From the IMG/VR virus record IMGVR_UViG_3300035698_006590, positions 1 to 46,591 of that record: a DNA stretch of 46,591 bases; one strand, given 5' to 3'. The notes under the pieces were generated by a model that was not told the DNA's origin, searched no databases, and worked only from the letters and a program-made list of their open reading frames with translations. This DNA is from a virus. A program made the position numbers and the translations under genes. Positions 1-46,591 of this stretch are shown here, piece after piece (position 1 is the first letter of the stretch; every line of letters starts with the position of its first letter).

Positions 1-104
1 CCCCCCTTTTTTTCCCTTCATTCGTCCTTTTCTTTCACCCGGGCTTCCCCCCCCCCCCCTCCTCGCCCCCCCCCCTTTCTTGGTTTTTGCCCCCCCCCCC
101 CCCC
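1..104. repeat. Degraded copy of the right end (terminal redundancy or read-quality artefact)
   Basis: This is C-rich low-complexity sequence that aligns colinearly with positions 46494-46591. A T-run is followed by an exact 11-base match, CTTCATTCGTC (16-26 here, 46509-46519 there). The same succession of C-runs, TTCTTG/TTCCTTG and TGC then follows, with many bases replaced by C or T. The simplest reading is that the molecule is circular or terminally repeated and that this copy is of poor sequence quality. No gene should be called here. Confidence 0.6.
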
Positions 105-4447: not shown

Positions 4448-4476
4448 CTTATCTCCTTTTGTTATTTGTAAAAAGG

Positions 4477-4563
4477 CGGAGCGGGCAGGATTTGAACCTG
4501 CGGTGCTGTTACACACGGTTGTTTTCAAGACAACTACCATAAGCCAGACTCGGACACCACTCC
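4477..4563 (-). tRNA. tRNA-Ser (anticodon TGA)
   Basis: The acceptor stem GGAGTGG/CCGCTCC has 7 bp with one G-U. The anticodon stem GTTGT/ACAAC closes the loop CTTGAAA, giving anticodon TGA. A long class II variable arm follows, and a T arm with GGTTCAAATCC. The 3' CCA is not encoded. It reads UCA and related serine codons. Confidence 0.93.
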
Positions 4564-4580
4564 GCAACGAGTAATGCATT

Positions 4581-4638
4581 AGGGGGCTAAGTGCCTAAGC
4601 GGCATAATTAGTTTTAATTGACCTTTGCACCGCCCCCC
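4581..4638 (-). ncRNA. 58-nt tRNA-sized structured element between the tRNAs
   Basis: Read on the minus strand, GGGGGGC pairs with GCCCCCT in a 7-bp acceptor-like stem. It encloses two hairpins, AATTA-AAAC-TAATT and TGCC-GCTTA-GGCA. There is no T-loop sequence and no standard anticodon loop. It lies exactly between two tRNA-Ser genes on the same strand. It may be a decayed or minimal tRNA, or a processing or regulatory element. Function unknown. Confidence 0.5.
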
Positions 4639-4641
4639 AAG

Positions 4642-4726
4642 CGGAGAATGTAGGAATCGAACCTACGCTACCTAACGGTAGGCTACAGCTTAGCAAGCTG
4701 ACGCATTACCTCTCTGCCAATTCTCC
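4642..4726 (-). tRNA. tRNA-Ser (anticodon GCT)
   Basis: Acceptor GGAGAAT/ATTCTCC, anticodon loop TTGCTAA (anticodon GCT), a long variable arm closed by CTACC/GGTAG, and the T arm GTAGGTTCGATTCCTAC. It reads AGC/AGU. With the TGA tRNA it covers most serine codons, a pairing that suggests compensation for host serine-codon bias. Confidence 0.93.
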
Positions 4727-28809: not shown

Positions 28810-28838
28810 ATTATAGTACAAATTGTCTTATTTTACAA
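28810..28838 (-). promoter_or_regulatory. Leftward promoter for scaffold and capsid genes
   Basis: TTGTAA, a 17-nt spacer and TATAAT on the minus strand. GACAAT and ATTGTC flank the -10 as an inverted repeat (ACAATT-TGTACT type), a possible operator. It gives capsid genes extra transcripts over the giant gene upstream. Confidence 0.7.
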
Positions 28839-31800
28839 GTAGCGTGTAATTTGGAGCGATTTCGTAGTTTAACCATCTTTTGAAATCTTTTCCAGGTTTA
28901 CCCGCTGTTATCCACATATCCTCTAACAACATTAGAGCACCAGCCCCTAAAGGTTGGTCGAATGTGAAGTGAGCAATCAAGCTATTTGATAACAAGGCAG
29001 GGATAGATTCCGCTTCCTCTGCCGTCAAAAACCCTTTCAGCCCATCTTTAGTACCGTAGTTTATAGAACCAGACTCTACTACCGAAGAGATACCTGGTTT
29101 TTTCTTCAGGTAATCTTTTTTCCAGTCTCGATATTCTTGGAATTGGGGGAAGTCTCTTGTAAACTGATACCTCTCGTTTTCGGGTAGGTCATAGTATTTT
29201 GATTGTAGGACGTACCAAGTCGGGAAAAACTTTTCCCTCTCCTTGATGAAATCTCCGTAGTCCTTGGCATGTTGGTCGTCCCACATATCTAGTTCGTGTA
29301 CTGGTTCTTCCAAGAACGCTTCCTGTACTTCTGGGATAGATTCTGGGATTGAAGAGCCCAGCATCTGTGCCCATCTAGCAAGCGTATCTAGTTCTACTGA
29401 GAACTCGTCCTTCGTCGCGTCATCAAAGAAAGCTCTCTGGAACTCTTGTCCGAATGCTTCTATAGCTATCTTTTGGTTAGCTTTATCTAAGCCAGTATAT
29501 AAGTCCCATATATTAGTTATTAATAGACTCTTAGCCTGCAACTTCGGGTCATCAATGAAAATATTAGAGCGCAAACGATACTCTGGGTGCTCGTCATAGA
29601 ATTCATTCATAGCAGTCTTATCTCCAGTGGCATTATAAATCTCCCACGCTCTGTTGTTTTGCCTCTGGTGTCCTCTGTATTCGAGTTCGCCTTGGGTGAT
29701 GACGCCATGTGGGAACATAGATACGAAAGTTGTAGCCCCTATAACAGCCAAACTAGCTCCTCCTTTTGCAGCCATCATGCCTAGATACCCTGGTTGCTTC
29801 ATGTTCACCTCTTCTAAAGCTCTCGAATAAGCAATTTTGTACCACTCAGAGTCGTACTTCCCATTTTGCATATCCAGTAGTGTCTTTGAATAATTCTCTG
29901 GGCTTATCTCGCTCATAGTCATCATGCCAGCAAGCTGTCTCTTCACGTAATAATCGCCGAATGAGCCAAACTGTGCTTGCGCTGGTGTCATACCGTAAGC
30001 TTGGCGAACTTTGCCTTCTGCCCAAGCAGGAGCACCAAGTATCGTACCAGCAGCGGTATCTTCACCTACCATGCTCTTCATCTCCCTAGACAGATTCAAT
30101 ATAGGTGTTGGCGGTATCTCCTCTGGCGTACCTTTAAGAAGGTTAATACCAATATCTATATTCATAGCTGGCTGCATGAACTGAGAAGCGAGTGTATACG
30201 GGTCAGAAAAACCAGTGTTTGTGTTCGCCCATTCGAGAGCCATATCCCACTCATCGCCCTCTCCTGTTTCTCTAGCCTTCATAGCCTGTTCTTCCGTAAT
30301 CTCTCCGAGCTTAGCCATATCTGATAGGTGATAATAGGCAGTCCTATAGAGTTGGCTCTTATCGTCATTAAATACGTCAAGCATTGAGAATAGAGAGCTA
30401 GGCGGGAAGAATTGCGAGTACGGGTCAAAGTATGTTGACCCTCCAGCCCACTCTGGTAAAAATGCCCAAGGAAGGCGTAGTTTATTCTCCATCCTACTTG
30501 GAACTCCAATCTTGCCCATCTGTTTCTGGGCATCTCTGAGCCTGTAGAATGAGGAGAACATACTCGTGTTATCGAGAGTCCTCATTGCCCAGTTTCTAAA
30601 TGAGTGCGTATACCAGAATTGGTACGGGAAGAGTACCGAGTAAGCCTCGTCCCACCCAGTTCTATGGGTGTAATCAAGCATCGTGTAGTCCTTCATGGCT
30701 TCGCCGTACTTCACGGCTTGAAATTTATTTGACCTCATGTTCTGGTCAACCTGATTCAACCACGAGTTTATTTCGTTAGCTTGTCCTGTCGTTAGTTTAC
30801 TACCGTCGTAAAGGTCATCACTTCTTATATCGTTAGCAATCTCTGTACCTATACCGTCCAACATCGGCTTCAGGTGGTTCATGTATGCTTCCATCTTCGT
30901 AATGCTGCCGTTATTGATTTGGCTAGGAACTCTCCCTTTTGAGGATACTGCAAACATAGCGCCCTCAATCTCAGCGTTATGCAGCTCCATAATCAACTTA
31001 GTGTAGTCTTCGTTATAGAACTTACTGTTTCTAGCCAAACGGTCTCCATAACTCGTAGGCGGGTCGTCTATCATCTTCTTCCTGTGCGCTCTTACAGCTT
31101 CAATCATATCCTTTCTTGCGTTCTTGACGTGCTCTAACCACGTCTTTACAGCATCAATGTGCGATTCTGGCATAGTACTGCCATCTGTCCTAGTGTATGG
31201 TATCTCGACGCCCTCGACGTCTGCTATCCTCTGAGACTCCGAGGCTAAATCCTTTATCATTTCCCAGTCGTTTTCGCTTATCTCTACGTAGACCTCTTCC
31301 CCACCAGCAAACTTTGTCTTCGTTTTGATACCCATAGCTTCTAGTTTTTCCGTCAAAACCCCTGCTGTCCCTTTCTTCCATGCCTTTTCCGACGTAACGA
31401 GACCGTTATCGCCTACTTTCTTGAACCATCTGTTTGCTTGTTGAACAGTGTTAACTTCTTGGATAGTCATACCTCTAGGAAGACCGCTATCTACGGGCAT
31501 GTCTTCGAGCGGGTACTTATCAAGGAATTCTTTTGATGACGCTACATCATACTTTGCTCGCGATTCTTCGGGCGTCAAGAATTTTCCGCTAGACGTCTCG
31601 TAAAAACCAAGGTCACCGTCTTCAACAATACCGAATTCTTTGCCATCGCTGAGTCTACGAATTACACCCACATCAGGTTGGTCGTAACCTCCGCTTTGCT
31701 TAGCAGCGTTTATCGCATCAACGTGCAAAACACCAACAAAGACGTCTTCACCAATCCTATACGCTGGTTTTACAGGAACGCCCGCCCTAAAACGCTTAAG

Positions 31801-34800
31801 AGTCCCTGCGTCATACGTGTAAGGAGATTCTGGCGAACCGATTGGGATTTCTGGTTGAGCCTCACCGCCAACAGCTTTGATTCCAGTAGATTCTCCAACA
31901 GCATCTGGAGCAACAGGTGGTCTCGTACCGCCGCCAAACAGAGCATTAGCGGACCTATCATACATCCTCATCTCGAAGTCGTAGGCAGTATCAGCCAACC
32001 CGTCGACTTCCAGCCTTGCCGCATCAAAAGCCAAGTTCTTAGCTTCGACGTCTACGTACTCTGCGGTGAAGGTTTTGCGCCATATAGTGCCACGCTTCTT
32101 ATAAAACCTCCTCCACATTTCTTCTAGCATACTCATTGAAGTAAGGTGTGTATCGTACCTTGCTTTTGAGCCTGGGTCTAATTCTGCCACAGCGCCGAAG
32201 ATGTTCTCCTCTGAATTCCTGAGCCATTTATTAAGTACCTTGAATCGCTTATTTTCAGATAACTCTATCCCGTCCCATACCTTGCTCCTTTGTTTGTAGG
32301 TCATTCCTTCCATAGAGGATATGGCAGCATCAATAGCTCTGAAGTGAGCTATATGTTCCATTTGGTGATACATTTGCATATCAACGTACTCTTTCGCAGC
32401 AGTGTAAGCACCAGAGTCCTTCATGCGTGCCTGAATATCTGCTCCCCTTGTCTTGAAATCTTCGTCCATAGCCCTTCTTATGAAGTCCAGATTACCGCTT
32501 TGCACCCTTTCAATAGCGCGAGCGACGTCGCCTTCCGTTCGTGCTCCTGCTAACTCTGTCTTCAAAGCCCGCAGGACACTATCATCAATTATCTCTGAAA
32601 GAATTTCTGGCGTGAGGATGGTGTCCTTAGCCATATTCTCAGCAACTCTTCTTGTGTAGATATTAATATCTATCTCTTCAGGGTTGCCTTTGAATATACC
32701 AGTTCTCACTTCATCCATATTCAGAGAGCCTATCACTTTAGCCATAATGGATTTCTTCACATTAGACGGCAGGTTGATGTTATCCATCCCTGGGATAGCA
32801 CCAGCCCACGTATTGTCCCAATACTTCTTCAAGCCGTTCATGTAGGATTTTCTAGCATGCGCAGACTCTATGTTATTAGACAGTTTTTTGAAAATAGAAA
32901 CTGCGTTAGCTCCTCTGGCGAGTTTTTCCATCCACTCGTGCTCGAATTTATAGTTAATGTCGTCAATCTTTATCTTGGTCTTCTGAATATCCATGCCCTC
33001 GCCCTCGAATTTCCAGTCACCAAAGTCGATTGCGTCGTTCCAACTCGCAAATCCCATCCTTTTGTTATAGTTATCTATATCAGTCAACCTCATGTAACCA
33101 AAGTTGTCAGAGGCAACACGGGTCACAATGTTGTTTATAGCGTTATATATCGCGTATCTTGGATTCAGTCCAAGAACAAGAGCACCTTGAATCTGCCTTT
33201 GGATATTCGTATACCTGATTAATTTCGTTATAGCGCTCTTTTCGGTCAACATGTACCTATTCGTAGCGTATTCGCCAACGTGTTTAGAGAGCTTATTAAG
33301 CAGGTTAACGTGAAATAACTCATCATTCCACGGCATCTTCCTAGAATTCTCTGCGTCCCACGTAAATATCTTCAACAAAGTATCTATTGAAGATGTAGCG
33401 TCACCGTCCCCCATAGCGTAGAATCTATCAAACCCAGCTATAGGTTCTTCCGCCGTCGCGCCCTTGAATTTTTTCCAAAGAGTAGCTGTGTCCCCTTTCT
33501 CAACGTAATCGAGAACCTTATTAGGCTCTATCCCTAGAGCGTTAGCCATCTGGTTCAATTTAGCTCTGGAGTCAGTAGTTCCAATCCATTTCTGGAACTC
33601 GTTACCGATTAGACCCTTAGAGATAGCCTTCCTGATAGCATCCCGAAACACAAATGAAGCTTGTGAACCGTAGACAGCTGGGTCTATTTCTATTCTTTGC
33701 ATAGCTGTGCCGAACACTTCACCGAGGTCTGCGTCTAGTGGTATATACTCCCCCTTCAGTTTCCTCAAGCCGTTCAGCTTGGCTTCAATTTTTATAGCCC
33801 CATCTCCAACCTCTAGCATTCCCATCCTATAAAGGATACCAACTTGGTCTTCTGCTTTTAGACCAGTCATCATCCCAGATACATGCGTCATCATGTTTTG
33901 GGCAAACTTGATAGCCTTAGAGCTATTCGTTTGGCTTCCAAGGTAAATAGAAATCTTCTTTAGTAAACCGCTACCTTCAGGCAGAATCGTCGGGGTAGCC
34001 CAACTGGGCATACCGCTCTTATCTATACCGCCTAACCATCTCTCAATAGGAGACCACGTAGGCGGCGCGTAAAAGTTCTTCACCTTACCACCCTTTGTAA
34101 CAATCTGTCTCGCCGCGTCCTGTGCATACCCGTCTGTATAGATTTTCTTCAGGTTCTCAAATACAGCCGCTGCCCCACCGTAAGAGCCAGATTCCCCTTT
34201 TACTAACTTATATATACTCCCAGCAACCATGTTAACTGGGAACGGCATCGCGTCGATAAACGCATTACCTCTAGCGTTGTCAGCAGCTTTCACTATGTTA
34301 CCCGCCAGACGCATATCGTCCATCTTCCCATAGATTTTCAGAAAATCAGCGCCTTCTGGGGTAGCTTGTAGCTTCGCTATAAGCTCCGCAGAGTCTACCT
34401 TGCTGAAAGCATCTATGAATTTGTTTATATCGGAAGCATCGTCGGCATAATCCATAGCCTTCGCGAGTTTGGCAAAGTCACCCGCAGCATCCATAGCCTT
34501 TATAACCTTAGAAACCTTACCGTTAGCTATAGCACGTGGTATTCTGTTTGACATCATTGGCAGGACATTCAGCGGGTCTACTATGTTTTGCATAACCAAG
34601 TCGGACAAGACGCCCTGGAATCCAAACTCCTCTTCCCAGTGTGATATGACTTCATCGACTTCAGCACCAGCTAATAGTTCATCTTGTATAGCGTTCGTGG
34701 CTTCCTTTCCCCACTTCCAGCTTTTGTCCACTTTCACTGGGTTAGGAACACCTTGCTCGATTCTCCATATCTCATCTGGGTCAGTTCTTTGACCGCCAGC

Positions 34801-36009
34801 TATGTCGAGAATCGTGCTCTCTCTCATGACATCCCAGCGCATTTGACTAGCCTGCCATGCAGACTTCGCGTACTCACTCATTGAGTACTCACTAACCCCA
34901 TTCAGAACTTCCTTAAACTCTTCGTCCGTAGCAGCTAGTTCGAGAGTTCCATATATCTGCTCCGAACCTCTAGATAGAGCATTAAGCACGTTACCAGCAA
35001 ACGCATTTACTGACGCCAGACCTGGGGAATCTAGTTCCAGTTGTCTGTCAGCAAAGTTCGCCGCCGCCATAACAGCTATGAACGGAAGCATTAGAGTTCC
35101 TATTTTCACACCAGCAATAGTACCAACCGCAATAGCAGCCATTGGCGCTGTCGTCAGTGCGGCAAGAATACTGCCACCAACATCCCTCCCTAACATCTTA
35201 TTCTTCTGCTCTCTCGTCATCTCTTGTTTGGGTAGTTCCATCCAAGGCTGTGAGTAGAACGGAGACATGAGAAGTTTCTGCAATTTACTCAGGTTATCCA
35301 TCCCGCCTGCGTTATATTTTCTCCTATATTCCTCATCAGCTAAATCGTTCATATACTGGTGAGGGAATAACATACTAGCAGGCGGCGATTCTAAATTAGA
35401 CAAGAAATTATACACATCACTGGTCTTGTCGATTGACCAATCTTCAACGCTCTTCCCTTTGTTTGTATAAGCTAGGAATTTATAGGCTTCTTGGATACCT
35501 TCTTTAGGAAGCCATGGTGGAAGACTGTCTGGGTCTTCACTGTTCTCTATGATTGTGTTATAGGTGTCAAGGGTTAAGGGGTCAGCGTAGTAGTTTATTG
35601 GCTCTCCCTTCTTCCCAGTTATCATTCTTCCTGGCACGATAGATTCTGCGTATTGCCCGCCAATCATATCGAGGTACGTATCGTATGCTTTTGGATTGAT
35701 GCCAGATATATCAATATCGCTCATTCCAGCACGCGCCACGACTCTTTTATAAGAATCCTGTGGTAAGCCAGCTAAATGGCGTAGGTCGCCAACCATGCCA
35801 CGAGGCTCTCTACCAGCAGCTAACTCCATCCCATCCCTTAGCCGCTTCTGCTTAGTTCCGCCGCTACGTTTAGGTTGCTGTTGAGTTTTCCAGGCAGCCA
35901 TGAATCGGGGGGATTTAGTCCAGCTCCCTACCCTGGGCGCTGTGGGATTGCTCCCTCCGTATCTCCTAATCTTTCCGTCATCACTTAGATGTTTTCGCAC
36001 GTCGTTCAT
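28828..36009 (-). CDS. Giant virion protein, probable ejection/internal protein (2393 aa)
   Basis: About 15% of the genome in one uninterrupted frame. The N-terminus (1-70) is basic and Gly-rich. A hydrophobic stretch at about 278-320 (GGSILAALTTAPMAAIAVGTIAG...) and another near 2073-2105 (MMAAKGGASLAVIGATTFVSMF) could insert into membranes. Long helical regions lie between. A conserved-looking aromatic block with LFPYQFWYTHSFRNWAMR is near residue 1790. Large internal proteins of podoviruses (T7 gp16, N4 vRNAP) are ejected with the DNA; position between portal/Gly-rich and scaffold genes supports that. No polymerase, protease or transglycosylase motif can be seen by eye. SD GGAGAATCT. Confidence 0.75.
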   Translation of the reverse strand: MNDVRKHLSDDGKIRRYGGSNPTAPRVGSWTKSPRFMAAWKTQQQPKRSGGTKQKRLRDGMELAAGREPRGMVGDLRHLAGLPQDSYKRVVARAGMSDIDISGINPKAYDTYLDMIGGQYAESIVPGRMITGKKGEPINYYADPLTLDTYNTIIENSEDPDSLPPWLPKEGIQEAYKFLAYTNKGKSVEDWSIDKTSDVYNFLSNLESPPASMLFPHQYMNDLADEEYRRKYNAGGMDNLSKLQKLLMSPFYSQPWMELPKQEMTREQKNKMLGRDVGGSILAALTTAPMAAIAVGTIAGVKIGTLMLPFIAVMAAANFADRQLELDSPGLASVNAFAGNVLNALSRGSEQIYGTLELAATDEEFKEVLNGVSEYSMSEYAKSAWQASQMRWDVMRESTILDIAGGQRTDPDEIWRIEQGVPNPVKVDKSWKWGKEATNAIQDELLAGAEVDEVISHWEEEFGFQGVLSDLVMQNIVDPLNVLPMMSNRIPRAIANGKVSKVIKAMDAAGDFAKLAKAMDYADDASDINKFIDAFSKVDSAELIAKLQATPEGADFLKIYGKMDDMRLAGNIVKAADNARGNAFIDAMPFPVNMVAGSIYKLVKGESGSYGGAAAVFENLKKIYTDGYAQDAARQIVTKGGKVKNFYAPPTWSPIERWLGGIDKSGMPSWATPTILPEGSGLLKKISIYLGSQTNSSKAIKFAQNMMTHVSGMMTGLKAEDQVGILYRMGMLEVGDGAIKIEAKLNGLRKLKGEYIPLDADLGEVFGTAMQRIEIDPAVYGSQASFVFRDAIRKAISKGLIGNEFQKWIGTTDSRAKLNQMANALGIEPNKVLDYVEKGDTATLWKKFKGATAEEPIAGFDRFYAMGDGDATSSIDTLLKIFTWDAENSRKMPWNDELFHVNLLNKLSKHVGEYATNRYMLTEKSAITKLIRYTNIQRQIQGALVLGLNPRYAIYNAINNIVTRVASDNFGYMRLTDIDNYNKRMGFASWNDAIDFGDWKFEGEGMDIQKTKIKIDDINYKFEHEWMEKLARGANAVSIFKKLSNNIESAHARKSYMNGLKKYWDNTWAGAIPGMDNINLPSNVKKSIMAKVIGSLNMDEVRTGIFKGNPEEIDINIYTRRVAENMAKDTILTPEILSEIIDDSVLRALKTELAGARTEGDVARAIERVQSGNLDFIRRAMDEDFKTRGADIQARMKDSGAYTAAKEYVDMQMYHQMEHIAHFRAIDAAISSMEGMTYKQRSKVWDGIELSENKRFKVLNKWLRNSEENIFGAVAELDPGSKARYDTHLTSMSMLEEMWRRFYKKRGTIWRKTFTAEYVDVEAKNLAFDAARLEVDGLADTAYDFEMRMYDRSANALFGGGTRPPVAPDAVGESTGIKAVGGEAQPEIPIGSPESPYTYDAGTLKRFRAGVPVKPAYRIGEDVFVGVLHVDAINAAKQSGGYDQPDVGVIRRLSDGKEFGIVEDGDLGFYETSSGKFLTPEESRAKYDVASSKEFLDKYPLEDMPVDSGLPRGMTIQEVNTVQQANRWFKKVGDNGLVTSEKAWKKGTAGVLTEKLEAMGIKTKTKFAGGEEVYVEISENDWEMIKDLASESQRIADVEGVEIPYTRTDGSTMPESHIDAVKTWLEHVKNARKDMIEAVRAHRKKMIDDPPTSYGDRLARNSKFYNEDYTKLIMELHNAEIEGAMFAVSSKGRVPSQINNGSITKMEAYMNHLKPMLDGIGTEIANDIRSDDLYDGSKLTTGQANEINSWLNQVDQNMRSNKFQAVKYGEAMKDYTMLDYTHRTGWDEAYSVLFPYQFWYTHSFRNWAMRTLDNTSMFSSFYRLRDAQKQMGKIGVPSRMENKLRLPWAFLPEWAGGSTYFDPYSQFFPPSSLFSMLDVFNDDKSQLYRTAYYHLSDMAKLGEITEEQAMKARETGEGDEWDMALEWANTNTGFSDPYTLASQFMQPAMNIDIGINLLKGTPEEIPPTPILNLSREMKSMVGEDTAAGTILGAPAWAEGKVRQAYGMTPAQAQFGSFGDYYVKRQLAGMMTMSEISPENYSKTLLDMQNGKYDSEWYKIAYSRALEEVNMKQPGYLGMMAAKGGASLAVIGATTFVSMFPHGVITQGELEYRGHQRQNNRAWEIYNATGDKTAMNEFYDEHPEYRLRSNIFIDDPKLQAKSLLITNIWDLYTGLDKANQKIAIEAFGQEFQRAFFDDATKDEFSVELDTLARWAQMLGSSIPESIPEVQEAFLEEPVHELDMWDDQHAKDYGDFIKEREKFFPTWYVLQSKYYDLPENERYQFTRDFPQFQEYRDWKKDYLKKKPGISSVVESGSINYGTKDGLKGFLTAEEAESIPALLSNSLIAHFTFDQPLGAGALMLLEDMWITAGKPGKDFKRWLNYEIAPNYTLLVK

Positions 36010-37097: not shown

Positions 37098-38960
37098 TTA
37101 TCTCTCCATTATATTTCCCATAGGAGACTCGACTACACCAGAAGCTCCCTGCATTGGCATACCGCCGTCACCAGGCATCATCTGGGGAACTCCAGGGACT
37201 CCAGGTTGAGCCGTGACATTGCCAAGTTGATTGTTCATACCTTGCATCTCACCAGGCATCATCTGGTTTGGGTCTCCAGGCATAGGTGGCTGAGGAGTCA
37301 TTGGTTGTCCAGGCGTCATTGGAGGCGCACCTTGTTGTTGTTGCGCCATCATCTGCTGCTGAGCCTGCATCTCCATCTGTTGGTCTATCATCTGCTGTTG
37401 TTGTGCTAGTATCATTTGTTGTTGCGTGTAAGCCATCTGAGCTTCCTGATTCGAGAACCGTTCGCCCCAGATTTCTTCCTGCATTTCATCGGACTGCCCA
37501 ACCTTCATCCAGCGTTCCCTCGCATATTTCTTTGAAACAAGCGGGTCTTCTCCGAATGTAGCCTGTGTAGCCATGATAACTTGCTGTCGTTCGTCTTGCG
37601 GCATCGAAATATCTAAGTTAGCAAATATCTCAAATGTCTCTGGGATTTCCTTAGCAACAAGTGTTTCCATTCCTTCCTCACCAAGGATTTCTTTTGAGCC
37701 GCCTTCTTGTTTTATAAGCTCAAACGCCATTCTCATACCATCAGATATGGCGAAGTTTGTCAGCCTCTGATAAGGAACAAGAGGTAATCGTCCAGCCTGT
37801 GAAAGCAGGGACACCATTGAGAATGGAGCATTAGCTCCTAGTGGTTGTCCTAGTGTCTGCTTGAATATCGTCGCTTCTTCAGTAAGCCTGTCTGATATTT
37901 CCAGACCCTGTAGAATACTATCATCAATAACGTGCTTGGCAAGAGAACTAAAGTCTTCGTCTGATTCAATCTCGATGATTCCGCCTGGTCTAGTCCAGTC
38001 AACTTCAATGTGCTTCTCTGGATTCTTCCGCTTATATAAGAACAGCGGGTTTGTACCAATAGCATTCATCATGGAGTAAAGAACCGTAAGCGACAAATTC
38101 CTTCTCTTCCAAAGGTTAGATTTATATAGAGTGTACAAGAACGGTTGTATCTTGTCTTGGTCTTTTTCAACAAATAGGTTAGAGCCCTCGGTAATCTGGG
38201 CAACAATAGGAATGAACGCGAGACCGTGCTCTACAGCAACCACTGGTTCATCAGCGTACTCAGTGAACCATACTGCATGATTTGTATTGTTCCAATACTC
38301 ATTTAGCTCGACAACATCGTAATCTTTCCTGTCGTCCAACATCTTTGAAACGGCATCGCCATAACGCGTCTTCGCGTCATAGACCCCAATCTCTTGCTTC
38401 ATCGCATAAGCAGCTAATCCGAGTCTGTCGTAGCTCGCATAGCCTAGCTTAGGATTGATGACGTCAAATAGTATCGGAGTCATCTTCATGGCTCGTTCTG
38501 CCCTAGCTTTCTCGGCAGGTGTAGTAGCTGCGTCATACATATCCTTAGTGGACATTATAAACATGTGCTCTTCACCATATAGAAGCCCAGATAGAGCTAA
38601 ATCGTAGTGCAGCGGTTTCTTGCGAATCCGTGAACTTGCATACCATATAGCTTTCGCTGCTTTTTCTAGCGGTGAAGATAGCTTTCTGACTTCCGCTGAG
38701 TTGAATTCGTTTGGTACTGAGAATTCAGGGTCAGCCGCAGTCAATAACCTAACCGCACCCAAGAGCGTGACTCGTGGGTCTGGAGCTAGTGTCTCCTTTA
38801 TGTATGAGTCGTCTGGAAGACCTGAATCTTCTAGAAGAAACATGGATTCCATCTCTGTGTATAGTGCGTCTCGCCCAGAGTAAGTCTCCGCAATCTTATT
38901 TGCGTGAACTTTTATATCGTCGAAGTCCGAATCTGCTATTTTCTTTCCTGCTGTACCCAT
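37098..38960 (-). CDS. Portal protein (620 aa)
   Basis: Located after the terminase genes. The first ~480 residues are of portal type (a helical N-terminus, LTAADPEFSVPNEF region near 72-85, a wing-like KTRYGDAVSKMLDD, and the KQTLGQPLGANAPFSMVSLLSQAGRLPLVPYQRL barrel-associated region, about 363-395). The last ~110 residues are a Q/M/P-rich tail (Q-Q-Q-M and P-G-x-P repeats), probably flexible inside the capsid. It forms the dodecameric DNA gate. The overlap with the helical gene upstream is 25 bases. Confidence 0.85.
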   Translation of the reverse strand: MGTAGKKIADSDFDDIKVHANKIAETYSGRDALYTEMESMFLLEDSGLPDDSYIKETLAPDPRVTLLGAVRLLTAADPEFSVPNEFNSAEVRKLSSPLEKAAKAIWYASSRIRKKPLHYDLALSGLLYGEEHMFIMSTKDMYDAATTPAEKARAERAMKMTPILFDVINPKLGYASYDRLGLAAYAMKQEIGVYDAKTRYGDAVSKMLDDRKDYDVVELNEYWNNTNHAVWFTEYADEPVVAVEHGLAFIPIVAQITEGSNLFVEKDQDKIQPFLYTLYKSNLWKRRNLSLTVLYSMMNAIGTNPLFLYKRKNPEKHIEVDWTRPGGIIEIESDEDFSSLAKHVIDDSILQGLEISDRLTEEATIFKQTLGQPLGANAPFSMVSLLSQAGRLPLVPYQRLTNFAISDGMRMAFELIKQEGGSKEILGEEGMETLVAKEIPETFEIFANLDISMPQDERQQVIMATQATFGEDPLVSKKYARERWMKVGQSDEMQEEIWGERFSNQEAQMAYTQQQMILAQQQQMIDQQMEMQAQQQMMAQQQQGAPPMTPGQPMTPQPPMPGDPNQMMPGEMQGMNNQLGNVTAQPGVPGVPQMMPGDGGMPMQGASGVVESPMGNIMER

Positions 38961-39256
38961 TCTTCACCTCTTTTTTTAAATCCCTTCTTTATTGGCAGTG
39001 TTGGTATTACCTTTGCTCTTTTTAGTAATTTTTCTAGGTTTCTGGTTACTTTAGCATCGTTTTTACCAAATTTTTTTATAAAATCTATAATTTTCTCGAC
39101 TTTTTTTTCTAAAATTCTCGTCTTTAGGTCGTTCCTTTCTAGCTCCGCTAGTATAAAATCTAAAATCTGGGCGCTAGTAGCCCCTTCCTGCTTACTTCTT
39201 ATGAGAATCCACCGTGATTTTACATCATTTATTAAATCGTCGTAATTCTCTCCCAT
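38936..39256 (-). CDS. Helical protein between terminase and portal (106 aa)
   Basis: Almost wholly helical: ATSAQILDFILAELERNDLKTRILEKKVEKIIDFIKKFGK is an amphipathic coiled-coil stretch. The C-terminus is basic (KKGFKKRGEEWVQQERK). SD AAGGAGG. Overlaps both neighbours. It could be an accessory packaging factor or a small adaptor; not identified. Confidence 0.6.
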   Translation of the reverse strand: MGENYDDLINDVKSRWILIRSKQEGATSAQILDFILAELERNDLKTRILEKKVEKIIDFIKKFGKNDAKVTRNLEKLLKRAKVIPTLPIKKGFKKRGEEWVQQERK

Positions 39257-40578
39257 GGAGACCTCCTTAAAGCAACATTATCATCCTGAAACTTACCTCT
39301 TGCAGAACTCAGAGCATACCTAAGGGCGTCATAGAGGTGGTCATCTTGGTCTGTATCGACGTCTTCCACCTTCTTCTCGTCCAAAACAAGGTACTTTAGT
39401 TCTGCTATAAGCCCTTTACACGATTCATGAACCTGTAATCCTGGCTTAAAGTCTGGGAGATTCATCAGGAGTCTGTCAATCTTCCTCTTCCCGCTGATTC
39501 TGTTATTGTCTGCACGGGTTAGGTATACGCCCTCATCTCCGAAGTTATCGGCAGTTGACGTGAGACCTTTCTTTGCGTCGCTCTTAGTGTTCCACATAGA
39601 GGGGTCTCCATAGCGTACATGGATTTTTTCGAGAGCTGTAATCTCCTGAATATACCGAGCCTGCTGGCTATCGGATAATCTAGCTATCTTCACTTCCTTA
39701 TATACTATGTACCTGCCAACATCGGGGTCTCTTGCAAGCCATACAGCCCCGAACGGCTTGGTATAACCACTATCAATTCCGACAATCTTTATCCAATTTG
39801 GCGGAATTACCAAATTTCCCTTTATGATATGGTCATCACCAAATCCAGGGAATGCCTGCCCAGAGAATACTTCCCAGTCTCCTTCGAGCCAAGCCTTCCT
39901 CAGTTTTTCTGGTAACGTCTTCAAGTCTTCCCAATACTGCGGGTCAAGGCTCTCATTATCTTGCGGGAGAGCCTGAACAAACGCAAACTGGTCTTCCAGT
40001 GCTTTCAACTCATCTGGGAAATCTCTATCAATCCACAGTTTCTTCACCCACTGATGCCCTTTGCCTCCAGGGTTAGCTGTGCATAGGAACTTAGTGCTGG
40101 TGACTCCCGGGTAACGAAGGTTTCCGCGAAGAATATCGAACACTTCTTTGTTTACCTTTTCAATCTGGTCTATACCAATAGCTGCATATTCAGCACCAAG
40201 GTACTTGGAGGGGTCGTCTAAGTTTCGGAGCACCATGACTCCACCACCAAACTCATCCCTAAGTACAAAAGCAAGACCATCAGATTGTGTCTTCTTCACT
40301 TCGCCTAACCAGCGAGGCATCTCAATGTTTATCTTTGATATCTGCCTATCAGCAAGAACAGGATAAGACTCACAACCTAAGAACACGTGCGGTTTCTTTA
40401 TGCCCTTCTTAAAGAGTTCTAGCATAACCTGAACAAGCCACCACCTTAATAGGTATGACTTACCACCGCCACGAGCGCCTCCGTACATTACGAAGCGTTT
40501 ACTCCTTAGCGTCTTTAGACATTCCTTCTGTTTCGGATGGAAGCTTGTCATTTCCGTCCATCTTAGAATTTCCGTCAT
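39232..40578 (-). CDS. terL: Terminase large subunit (448 aa)
   Basis: ATPase: Walker A GGARGGGKS (33-41) with the adenine-binding Q of FHPKQ before it, Walker B AAIGIDQIEK (about 129-138; acidic D-Q in place of D-E) and FLCTANPGG (about 165-173, coupling motif). Nuclease domain: IVGIDSGYTKPFGAVWL (first acidic residue, about 263-279), IHVRYGDPSMW and DDHLYDALRYAL at the C-terminus (late acidic pair). It pumps DNA into the head. The ATG at 40578 has GGAGG at 6 nt and lies inside the small-subunit gene. Confidence 0.93.
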   Translation of the reverse strand: MTEILRWTEMTSFHPKQKECLKTLRSKRFVMYGGARGGGKSYLLRWWLVQVMLELFKKGIKKPHVFLGCESYPVLADRQISKINIEMPRWLGEVKKTQSDGLAFVLRDEFGGGVMVLRNLDDPSKYLGAEYAAIGIDQIEKVNKEVFDILRGNLRYPGVTSTKFLCTANPGGKGHQWVKKLWIDRDFPDELKALEDQFAFVQALPQDNESLDPQYWEDLKTLPEKLRKAWLEGDWEVFSGQAFPGFGDDHIIKGNLVIPPNWIKIVGIDSGYTKPFGAVWLARDPDVGRYIVYKEVKIARLSDSQQARYIQEITALEKIHVRYGDPSMWNTKSDAKKGLTSTADNFGDEGVYLTRADNNRISGKRKIDRLLMNLPDFKPGLQVHESCKGLIAELKYLVLDEKKVEDVDTDQDDHLYDALRYALSSARGKFQDDNVALRRSPWERITTI

Positions 40579-41315: not shown

Positions 41316-41650
41316 TATTTCTCTGGGGTAATCTTTTGTTCTTGGGCGCACTTTTTCGCGGCGATAGCTTCGATAGCTTCAAGCTTATCAATAATACCTT
41401 GCTTTGCTTTTACTTCATCTTCAAGCTTTAGGACTCTTCCCTCTAGTTCTATGATTCTCTTCAAGAGCCTGTCTACTCGTTTTTCGTAAGAGTCCACCAT
41501 TTTCTCGTATGCCTCCGATGTATTCGATAGTGACTCCGAATCTACTTTACGTTTATTCGCAGTTAGCATATAAATGGCAGTCAAAACACTAACGAGACCG
41601 CCTATCAATCCCATCATGTTAGTAATCCCACAAGTCGTTGATTCAAACAT
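41315..41650 (-). CDS. Membrane coiled-coil protein, first late gene (111 aa)
   Basis: One membrane helix (MMGLIGGLVSVLTAIYMLTA, about 12-31) followed by a long coiled-coil (SYEKRVDRLLKRIIELEGRVLKLEDEVKAKQGIIDKLEAIEAI, about 55-97) and a short charged end. The layout is like some phage holin- or spanin-type and superinfection proteins. SD AGAGGATTA. It follows the late promoter directly. Confidence 0.65.
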   Translation of the reverse strand: MFESTTCGITNMMGLIGGLVSVLTAIYMLTANKRKVDSESLSNTSEAYEKMVDSYEKRVDRLLKRIIELEGRVLKLEDEVKAKQGIIDKLEAIEAIAAKKCAQEQKITPEK

Positions 41651-41680
41651 TAATCCTCTATTTTACTGCCGTATTAGTAT

Positions 41681-41717
41681 TAGGATAAATTGTATCCTAT
41701 TTGTCTTCATTTAGCAA
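41681..41717 (-). promoter_or_regulatory. Late promoter with inverted-repeat operator
   Basis: TTGCTA (-35), a 17-nt spacer and TACAAT on the minus strand. TAGGATA and TATCCTA, separated by 5 nt (41681-41699), form a 7-bp-arm inverted repeat across the -10. It is different from the early operator. It should start the whole structural operon (41.65 kb down). Confidence 0.75.
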
Positions 41718-42026
41718 GGGTTCTTTTCGGTGTACCGATGACAAAGGATGTCACAGGTTATCTAGAAAACTGAGATTTCGTGTTGCGGTTTATACTGGTA
41801 TGTTGGTGGAGGGAGGGTGGGCATGAAGAGGGGGGTGAAGACCATGATGATGATATATATTATCTTTTATATATATAATTACAGAGAGCAAGGCGAGCAC
41901 AGTGAGCTGTATGTCGGCTCGTCCCTCACCGACCACCCCTACCCACGTGTACTGAACAACAGGCAGGAAGAACAAGCCGAGACCGCGTGTTGTCACCTAC
42001 AAGTGGCAGAGGTCAGCCTGAATCCA
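41718..42026. other. Non-coding divergent region before the large RNA
   Basis: About 300 nt with no convincing gene. It has an AT-rich tract (41845-41880, TATATAT-rich) after a G-rich stretch (GGTGGAGGGAGGGTGGGC). Frames on both strands lack SDs and protein-like composition. It separates the leftward late promoter from the RNA. Confidence 0.6.
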
Positions 42027-42055
42027 TTGACGGCAAAGGGAATTCAGCATACTTT
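42027..42055 (+). promoter_or_regulatory. Candidate rightward promoter for the large RNA
   Basis: TTGACG, a 17-nt spacer and TACTTT, RNA start near 42062. A TATAAT at 42084-42089 has no good -35. No better candidate lies just before 42361, so the transcript may begin about 300 nt earlier than the closed RNA structure. Confidence 0.4.
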
Positions 42056-42149
42056 AGCATGTAGACCTACCGCTGGTCACGCTTATAATGCCATCTGTTG
42101 TCCCCTAGACAGCCGTAAACCAAGCCTTCGTCCCCTTGTCTATGCTTAC

Positions 42150-42313
42150 CTCTTACTGGCAGTAAGAAAGAGTGAATGGCAAAGTCTGCCACTCTTACAC
42201 CATAAGAGCACGCAACAGAGTGAACAGACACACCGTTGATAAAACCAAGCACGCTAACCGCAACAGACGTGACGATGAAACTGTCACCACTGTTACGGGC
42301 TCACTCCGTGAGC
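42150..42313 (+). other. Hairpin-rich RNA leader 5' of the large RNA
   Basis: CTCTTAC occurs twice around GTAAGA-AAGAG, so two exclusive hairpins can form (about 42150-42200). A 13-bp interrupted hairpin lies at 42258-42298 (CCG, AACAG and GTGAC with their complements). GCTCAC-TCC-GTGAGC is at 42299-42313. Probably part of the same transcript. Confidence 0.5.
42269..42287 (+). repeat. Hairpin repeat GTGACGATGAAACTGTCAC
   Basis: First copy of the stem-loop also found at 46375-46393. Here it lies inside a longer hairpin (42258-42298) in the leader of the large RNA. The two copies bracket the 43-46 kb block. Confidence 0.55.
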
Positions 42314-42360
42314 ACAAACAGCACAATGAGATGACTAAGGTACGTTGGAATTGAAGTGCG

Positions 42361-43125
42361 AAGTAGCAAAAACGTCCGTTGCCTACTCTGCTCAAGTGTT
42401 CGAGACAGTCTGACTCAGACTTCCGCTCCGTGACCGTGTTCTAAGTGCCTTAATCCCCTTGCAAAACCCGTCTCAACCCCAGTGAGGGTTACTTTCAGAA
42501 CACTTCTCCTGGTCAGTTGTTTTACGCTCACCTTTTGGCAGGGACTGAACTTCTTATAAACCGTTCACAACACACACCCCACTGCACCTGTTCGCTTGTT
42601 ACTTGAGTGGAAAACCCTCTCTGTTCTTAGCACGTCAAGCGGGTGTCGCCCCGACGCTGTTGTCAGGTATAAGTTCAGAGAGCATCATAACACACCAGTC
42701 GACAAGTCGCCCTACGGGTTGAGACGACAAGAACAGTCGCCCTGTTAGGGTTATCAAGGACGACGTGAAACAAAAAAGTTGTCGACCTTGACAATCTCAA
42801 ACATGGTGTCTTATATACGATGCAGAACTTTGACAACAGAGTGGGTGCGCCTTTGCCCCGAATGACGAAGAACAGAGAGCCCCTCTAAGTAATCGCAAAC
42901 GGATAGTGGGGGTTCTGTGCGTTGCGAACACAGAAGTCCAAAACCAAAAGGCGACGTATCAACTGAGCAAGAGTAGCTGAAAGATAACCCCTACGGGGGT
43001 CTCAACAGTGCAAGGGGAGTAGGACAAGTCACGGACACTAGGAGCTTCAATCAGAATTAGACCCTAACACAAGCTGGAGTAGGCAACGGACTTGCTACTT
43101 CTATGTTTTTTGTTTGTTTTTTTTT
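42361..43125 (+). ncRNA. Large ornate structured RNA (about 740-765 nt)
   Basis: The outer helix is AAGTAGCAA (42361-42369) and GTCCGTTGCCTACTC (42374-42388) with GAGTAGGCAACGGAC (43077-43091) and TTGCTACTT (43092-43100): 24 perfect pairs, one 4-nt bulge, about 700 nt apart. The 3' end is followed by a T-rich tract (43106-43124), which suggests intrinsic termination and sets the plus strand. Nested inside are: TCAGTTG/CAACTGA (42513/42960), CCTTTTGG/CCAAAAGG (42531/42944), GGACT/AGTCC (42542/42935); a 17-bp helix 42617-42637 with 42863-42879; CTGTTGTCA/TGACAACAG (42657/42831); AAGTTC/GAACTT and GTCGACAA/TTGTCGAC (42698/42779). There are two cUACGg tetraloops (42712-42717 and 42991-42996). No gene fits the region. 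It resembles GOLLD/ROOL-type RNAs in size and complexity; membership is not established. Confidence 0.85.
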
Positions 43126-43164
43126 GCTAACTAATGGTTTTGAGATTTTGAAAGGAGTTTGATT

Positions 43165-45074: not shown

Positions 45075-45382
45075 TTTCAACTAAGTGCGCCTGACAAGCG
45101 AGATTAGCACAACTTCATCGAAAACATCATCGACCAAAGCCTCTTCAGGCTGATAAAACACCGCAGACTATCGAATAAGGCAGGTATAGCAAACCTGCAA
45201 ATCGGGAAACGCCTCTTAAGGTTGACGACATCCCGTAAACCATGCCATACCCAATAAGATTATAGGCAATCGCAGGCTCTTGCATTTCCATTGCATCACG
45301 CCAATTTTGCTAAATTGCACGGTTATGACATAGGTTATTTTATCAAAGCTTCATCAATATCACGAAGATAATGGAGTCCAAA
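45075..45382 (+). other. Non-coding spacer with hairpins
   Basis: About 300 nt without a good frame. It holds AGCCT-CTTC-AGGCT (about 45138-45151) and GCAGGT-ATAGCAA-ACCTGC (about 45182-45200). It also has a CCGTAAAC word also found at 42113 and, as CCGTAAATC, at 44127. It may be a leader or small-RNA region. Confidence 0.45.
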
Positions 45383-45640
45383 ATGAGTTCAAAACGTGCA
45401 AATAACCAAGTACCGTTCATGCTTAACGCACCTATAAGAGTTAGGAAACCTAACCGCCACAATCGGGGTCAATCGCCCCACTCGATGAGCAGACGTGCAA
45501 TTAGGCAGGAAGAAGTTAAGCGAAGTCGCAGAGAAAATGCGCAACAGGCTCAAGGTGAGTCTGAACCTTATCAAAAAGATAAGTCTAGTAACACTCAAGT
45601 AAATCGCAACGTCTCGGATGAGACGAAAGGAGTACCAAAT

Positions 45641-46105
45641 ATGGATAACCAACATCAAAATAAACAAAAAAAAGCCGTTTGCACGGGTGATACCCAATCC
45701 CTTGCGAACGTGAACATCACGGTGTCGCTATTTGACATAGTCAGAGAATACCCTGAATCAGTGAAAGCCGTAGTATGTCAAATATTTGACTATTGCATAA
45801 AAGACAAGAATCCCCTTCTTGCTTTCTTCAACACTCTTGGCAGTGCCGTTGTAGGTAAGTACCTATTCAACACGGGCACAGAAAAAGTTGAGTTCACAAT
45901 AGACATGAGCAAAATGAAAGGCGTAAACCTCAAGAGCCTCATGTCATCGCAACAAGTCAAGTATACCCCAGCGCAGGCGTCAGCACGAGCCTTCATGAAA
46001 AAATGGCTCAAGCCAATGGGTATTGACCCGAAAGCAGAAAACGTTCTGGAAATAGATTTGGACGTTGCAGACAAAGTTGAAAAAAAGCATGAAAACCAGC
46101 AATAA
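45641..46105 (+). CDS. Hypothetical protein (154 aa; longer in-frame form from 45383)
   Basis: GAAAGGAG at proper spacing before the ATG at 45641 supports the short form. A second possible start at 45383 (GGAG 6 nt upstream) adds an 86-residue basic, disordered N-terminus (SRRAIRQEEVKRSRRENAQ). The core has NVNITVSLFDIVREYPESVKAVVCQIFDY and a KVEFTIDMSKMKGVNLKSLM stretch, then a helical end. Both forms may be made. No family recognised. Confidence 0.55.
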   Translation: MDNQHQNKQKKAVCTGDTQSLANVNITVSLFDIVREYPESVKAVVCQIFDYCIKDKNPLLAFFNTLGSAVVGKYLFNTGTEKVEFTIDMSKMKGVNLKSLMSSQQVKYTPAQASARAFMKKWLKPMGIDPKAENVLEIDLDVADKVEKKHENQQ

Positions 46106-46493: not shown

Positions 46494-46591
46494 CCCACTT
46501 TTTTTTCTCTTCATTCGTCATGTCATTACACTCGGCTTGCCCCCCACCCCCCTCTATGCGCCACGCCCTTCCTTGTATATGCACCACCCCC
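46494..46591. repeat. Right-end sequence matching the degraded start
   Basis: A T-run, then CTTCATTCGTC, then C-rich stretches in the same order as positions 1-104. This copy keeps more base diversity, so it is probably the correct version of the terminal or junction sequence. Confidence 0.6.

Follow-up and report, generated by a model that had tools for sequence, protein, structure and literature searches.

The window analysed here, by which we mean the whole stretch of 46,591 bases making up IMG/VR record IMGVR_UViG_3300035698_006590, carries genes for a terminase large subunit, a major capsid protein, an endolysin and a DnaB-like helicase together with two tRNA-Ser genes, and by this gene content its source is a tailed double-stranded DNA phage. 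Nearly all long open reading frames from position 41650 down to about 4480 are read leftward, including one of 2393 aa (28828-36009) that lies between the capsid and terminase regions, and those from 43165 onward, as well as those at the left end, are read rightward. The 1.5 kb of 41660-43160 form a non-coding divergent control region, the right half of which is filled by the rod-like structure described in this work. Both ends of the window (1-60 and 46530-46591) are C- and pyrimidine-rich and of low complexity, and since a contig identical to it (L004) stops at 46537 too, the end of the window may lie near a physical or an assembly end. The features discussed below, where L005 denotes a related contig, are the following:

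4475-4726: two tRNA-Ser genes, far from the rod
39232..40578, - strand: terminase large subunit, about 1.8 kb left of the rod, transcribed leftward
41660..42345: adjoining non-coding DNA with weak structure (z -1.5 on +, -2.9 on -); identity to L005 about 73%
41689..41717, - strand: sigma-70-like promoter, TTGCTA-17-TACAAT, serving the leftward (late) operon (in L005, TTGCAA-17-TACAAT)
41850..41879, + strand: possible rightward promoter, ATGATA-18-TATAAT (putative; not kept base by base in L005)
42360..42388, + strand: left strand of the outer helix, GAAGTAGCAA-aaac-GTCCGTTGCCTACTC
42360..42697, + strand: left (5') arm of the rod (minimum-energy fold and pairing walk)
42698..42803, + strand: apical end of the rod, three short hairpins in the minimum-energy fold, where the centroid differs
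42804..43101, + strand: right (3') arm of the rod (minimum-energy fold and pairing walk)
43077..43101, + strand: right strand of the outer helix, GAGTAGGCAACGGAC-TTGCTACTTC
43105..43125, + strand: T-rich tract, starting 4 nt beyond the closing helix
43165..43665, + strand: phosphatase family gene (phrog_335), first of the rightward operon, 40 nt past the T tract

According to the minimum-free-energy (MFE) structure and the pairing walk, the 742-base non-coding stretch 42360-43101 forms one irregular hairpin with virtually no branches and with 71% of its bases paired on the + strand and 76% on the - strand in the computed folds. The arms comprise 233 pairs, running from 42360/43101 inward to 42698/42803 and followed by a small apical part, and the MFE and centroid structures agree in the arms and disagree in the apical part. 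The complementarity, which a first-pass annotation of this DNA had judged too deeply nested to be expected by chance, is indeed far beyond chance, and the feature is real and extreme. The MFE of 42350-43130 on + is -315.3 kcal/mol, compared with a mean of -222.6 kcal/mol in 20 shuffles (z = -16), and 100 further shuffles gave a mean of -223.6 +/- 8 kcal/mol and a best value of -241.5. Nested depth reached 249 pairs in the rod as against 82 +/- 21 in 100 shuffles (maximum 152), and of 77 further stretches taken from the window none exceeded 120. Fetched phage and prophage loci totalling about 1.7 Mb, examined where they are most structured, gave depths of up to 132, the rod scoring 261 in the same test. 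With no pair allowed to span more than 300 nt, the fold reached only -223, which is the level of the shuffles, so that local hairpins, being no better than chance, are not what is special here and the excess stability is all long-range. Pair probabilities exceed 0.9 for 202 of the 264 pairs overall and for 192 of the 231 long-range ones, and in silico the rod persists to 70 C and also within longer transcripts of either strand. The first-pass annotation's view that no protein frame fits was borne out: under start-codon rules no open reading frame of at least 60 aa lies inside 42400-43150, and the tested frames of the rod had no match in Pfam.

In its details the structure departs from that first description. 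The outer helix, given there as 24 bp, exists but is not unbroken, since it consists of 25 bp in which GAAGTAGCAA/TTGCTACTTC (10 bp) and GTCCGTTGCCTACTC/GAGTAGGCAACGGAC (15 bp) are separated by an AAAC bulge of 4 nt; one-sided bulges of this length recur in the left arm and include AAAC, AAAC, AACA and AGCA. The nested helices are likewise real, but they make up one rod instead of an ornate branched fold, and no perfect helix of 17 bp appears, the longest perfect inverted repeats reported being of 15 and 12 bp. The hairpin motifs GTCG/CGAC and cUACGg do occur in the sequence, but the cUACGg loops are absent from the minimum-energy fold. The T-rich tract following the outer helix is present as described, and no other 24-nt stretch of the window is as rich in T. 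It may well be the intrinsic terminator of a + strand RNA, or alternatively the A-rich leader of a - strand RNA; a consensus scan for terminators did not list it. A promoter scan directly upstream of 42360 revealed no clear promoter, and transcription from the putative promoter at 41850..41879 would read through the rod.

Relatives of the rod were sought both by its sequence and through proteins encoded in the window. One other contig (L004/L084, IMGVR_UViG_3300005916_000016) contains a second, 100% identical copy, which is weak evidence against misassembly because both contigs may share one sample; no further homologue was found in the IMG/VR scans or in phage or plasmid records, where blastn of the rod gave no match. 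Exact scans for the outer helix and for conserved motifs located both helix arms only in the identical contig, other matches being single and unrelated. The protein queries (the terminase, a 620-aa protein of 37098-38960, the phosphatase, the anti-restriction protein and that of 45371-46105) returned only the identical contig L004, the relative L005 and a distant short contig, L105. In the genome contigs the capsid query found nothing, and the terminase query only relatives at 35% or less. L005 is 84% identical at the DNA level in coding parts and about 73% in the non-coding region, and it ends at about 42270 in window coordinates, before the rod.

Because a decaying inverted duplication should resemble drifting non-coding DNA in its balance of indels and mismatches, L005 provided a standard against which the two arms could be judged. 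When one arm was reverse-complemented and aligned with its partner, 25 indel events to 60 mismatches were counted, compared with 13-16 indel events to 110-114 mismatches between the non-coding DNA of the window and that of L005 under the same aligner settings. The indels are hence too many for an inverted duplication that is simply decaying, a result that we take as support and not as proof because the contrast shrinks and becomes weak at the most permissive gap penalties. It bears on the reading of the rod as a decayed inverted duplication, or a fold-back (MITE-like) insertion, that has no present function. Terminal inverted repeats of 25 bp, outer segments that are themselves quasi-palindromic and a lack of conservation support for selection on the rod, whose only other copy found is identical, are what such a relic would show. 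Apart from the indel ratio, this reading is opposed by the borders, at which no target-site duplication was seen, and by the failure to find a second copy elsewhere in the window or any blastn match, and we consider it improbable. The bulge-rich arms, together with the A-rich unpaired bases described next, are better explained by a + strand RNA that has evolved than by an inverted duplication in decay.

The evidence as to strand conflicts overall. In a fold computed without G.U pairs, the unpaired bases on + number 92 A, 51 T, 45 C and 28 G; because G.U pairs were left out the paired bases are necessarily strand-symmetric, and the unpaired ones are still asymmetric. Unpaired bases and loops rich in A are usual in structured RNA, and both this composition and the position of the T tract exactly at the + strand 3' end favour the + strand. 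Other observations point to the - strand and would agree with a leftward leader, in which a long - transcript would carry the rod and the adjoining region in its 5' part before entering the late operon (terminase, capsid), whose expression they would control, for example through antitermination or RNase processing. The rod is more stable on - (-357 versus -315 kcal/mol), but its z-score is no better there than on +. Apposed A.C mismatches on +, which amount to G.U pairs on -, exceed G.T mismatches by 14 to 4, with a raw p of 0.03 that weakens once the composition ratio of 0.73 is allowed for, and the consensus fold of about 41855-42225 with L005 has a z of -4.4 on - versus -2.1 on +. The late genes, moreover, begin just left of the region, and at about 41790-41850 the - strand has a stretch rich in C and poor in G, with a C-rich counterpart in L005, that may resemble a Rho site. 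A leftward leader is not needed, however, because the late genes have a conserved promoter immediately in front of them, beyond both the rod and the adjoining region; the unpaired bases on - are also U-rich, and the T/A tract occupies the place where the promoter of such a leader would have to be. As A- and C-rich loops would by themselves yield an excess of A.C, we favour the + strand, roughly two to one, and regard the leftward leader as unlikely.

That both strands fold follows from pairing that is mostly Watson-Crick with few G.U pairs, and G.U pairs are in fact scarcer than in shuffles on both strands, which keeps alive an explanation at the level of DNA. The rod would then do its work as DNA, its imperfect inverted repeat (about 740 bp) being a site for packaging, replication or recombination close to the terminase genes, and its folding as RNA would be incidental. 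Its place upstream of the terminase genes is one where pac and cos sites are often located. The strand asymmetry of the unpaired bases (A 92 versus T 51) is nevertheless unexpected for a strand-neutral DNA site, and the many asymmetric bulges would probably extrude poorly as a cruciform, so that a DNA site appears to us a poor candidate, with little probability of being the correct explanation.

The rod matched none of the RNA families with which it was compared. The first-pass annotation had likened it to GOLLD and ROOL, and the Rfam search of the rod gave no match at the gathering threshold or at E values up to 10, whether to these two, to OLE and HEARO or to the ribozyme families. OLE, HEARO and other giant bacterial RNAs fall in the same size class of large structured RNAs, with a topology and setting unlike those of the rod. 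The likeness to GOLLD and ROOL holds in that all are extremely folded candidates for large non-coding RNAs of phages, but it could not be sustained in architecture: GOLLD and ROOL branch, have kissing loops and assemble into cages (PMC12286853), whereas the rod is predicted to be single and unbranched. ROOL also often stands beside tRNA islands in phages and prophages, unlike the rod, in whose genome only the two tRNA-Ser genes at 4475-4726 are present. In setting, the closest known system is the CBASS-activating bacteriophage RNA (cabRNA), which is structured, derives from terminase genes and sets off CBASS (PMC10686824). The rod shares with it a phage origin, the terminase neighbourhood and double-stranded parts of the kind that a defence protein can sense; cabRNA, however, is described as arising from the terS-terL coding genes with several hairpins in about 400 nt, whereas the rod would be a single giant structure from non-coding DNA of its own, located upstream of the terminase genes.

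In shape, the closest known systems are the viroid-like rods. The Obelisks have 68-72% of their bases paired (PMC13096302), close to the 71-76% of the rod, and share its long unbranched form, which could suggest a DNA-borne relative of Obelisk-type elements. Obelisks nonetheless replicate as RNA, measure about 1 kb and have an Oblin open reading frame, while the rod is a shorter non-coding stretch (<1 kb) with no open reading frame of at least 60 aa beginning at a start codon, hence no Oblin, and no match to a ribozyme family. It resides, moreover, in the DNA of a double-stranded DNA phage, outside any RNA-replicon context: its record also carries terminase and capsid genes, and the second contig in which it occurs is identical. 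Kinship with Obelisks is for these reasons very improbable.

The most likely reading of the locus is a predicted rod-shaped phage non-coding RNA in a form matched to no known family, and to this extent the earlier proposal of a large structured phage RNA absent from Rfam is supported by the fold statistics and the null result in Rfam. In its fuller form, to which we give about an even chance of being right, our explanation is that 42360-43125 is the gene of an autonomous, terminated non-coding RNA of the + strand that acts in trans as a protein-binding rod. Transcription of the + strand would produce an RNA of about 745-765 nt, ending with the U-rich tract immediately past the closing helix, its roughly 230 base pairs making up a single long and irregular rod with small bulges or internal loops at short intervals and a three-hairpin head. 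This long, bulged, double-stranded platform may bind a protein in trans, its partner being either a host factor (for instance, an RNA-sensing defence protein or an RNase) or a phage protein, and the RNA would in that case be a decoy or a scaffold. The decoy or scaffold role is a guess from shape alone, and a rather doubtful one. We also propose, tentatively, that the rod may stand for a new architectural class, namely an autonomous terminated unbranched rod of about 750 nt with recurring A-rich bulges, viroid-like in shape but DNA-encoded, that during infection would serve as a long dsRNA-like platform, whether decoy or scaffold. The giant phage RNAs known so far branch and build cages, and a giant rod would add a second architecture; a long dsRNA-like phage RNA would also bear on how bacteria sense phage RNA, through CBASS and related systems, and on the countermeasures of phages. 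At present the rod is one strong candidate without relatives.

Among the other structured places encountered, a non-coding region upstream of the terminase in contig L050 was considered as a second rod and rejected, being repeat-rich and multi-branched with a nesting depth of 75. This 1.4-kb region (1-1430) contains many GCTTTAAAGC and ACGGTATA palindromes, and its branched folding is strong (z -8 on +). In L047, L125, L065 and others, the structured sites were not rods and had no Rfam match; that of L065 (1250-2125), which is non-coding and upstream of a terminase, folds with unusual stability for its GC content.

Two further elements lie in the adjoining non-coding DNA. The stretch 41790-41850 is G-rich on the + strand (GGAGGGAGGGTGGG...GGGGGG) and C-rich on the - strand, a character kept in L005, and could possibly form a G-quadruplex on + or a Rho site on -. 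About 60 nt directly upstream of the leftward promoter (41720-41790) are almost identical in L005, the surrounding non-coding DNA being about 73% identical, and hold inverted repeats (TGACA..TGTCA and CGGTGTACCG); this segment is likely an operator.
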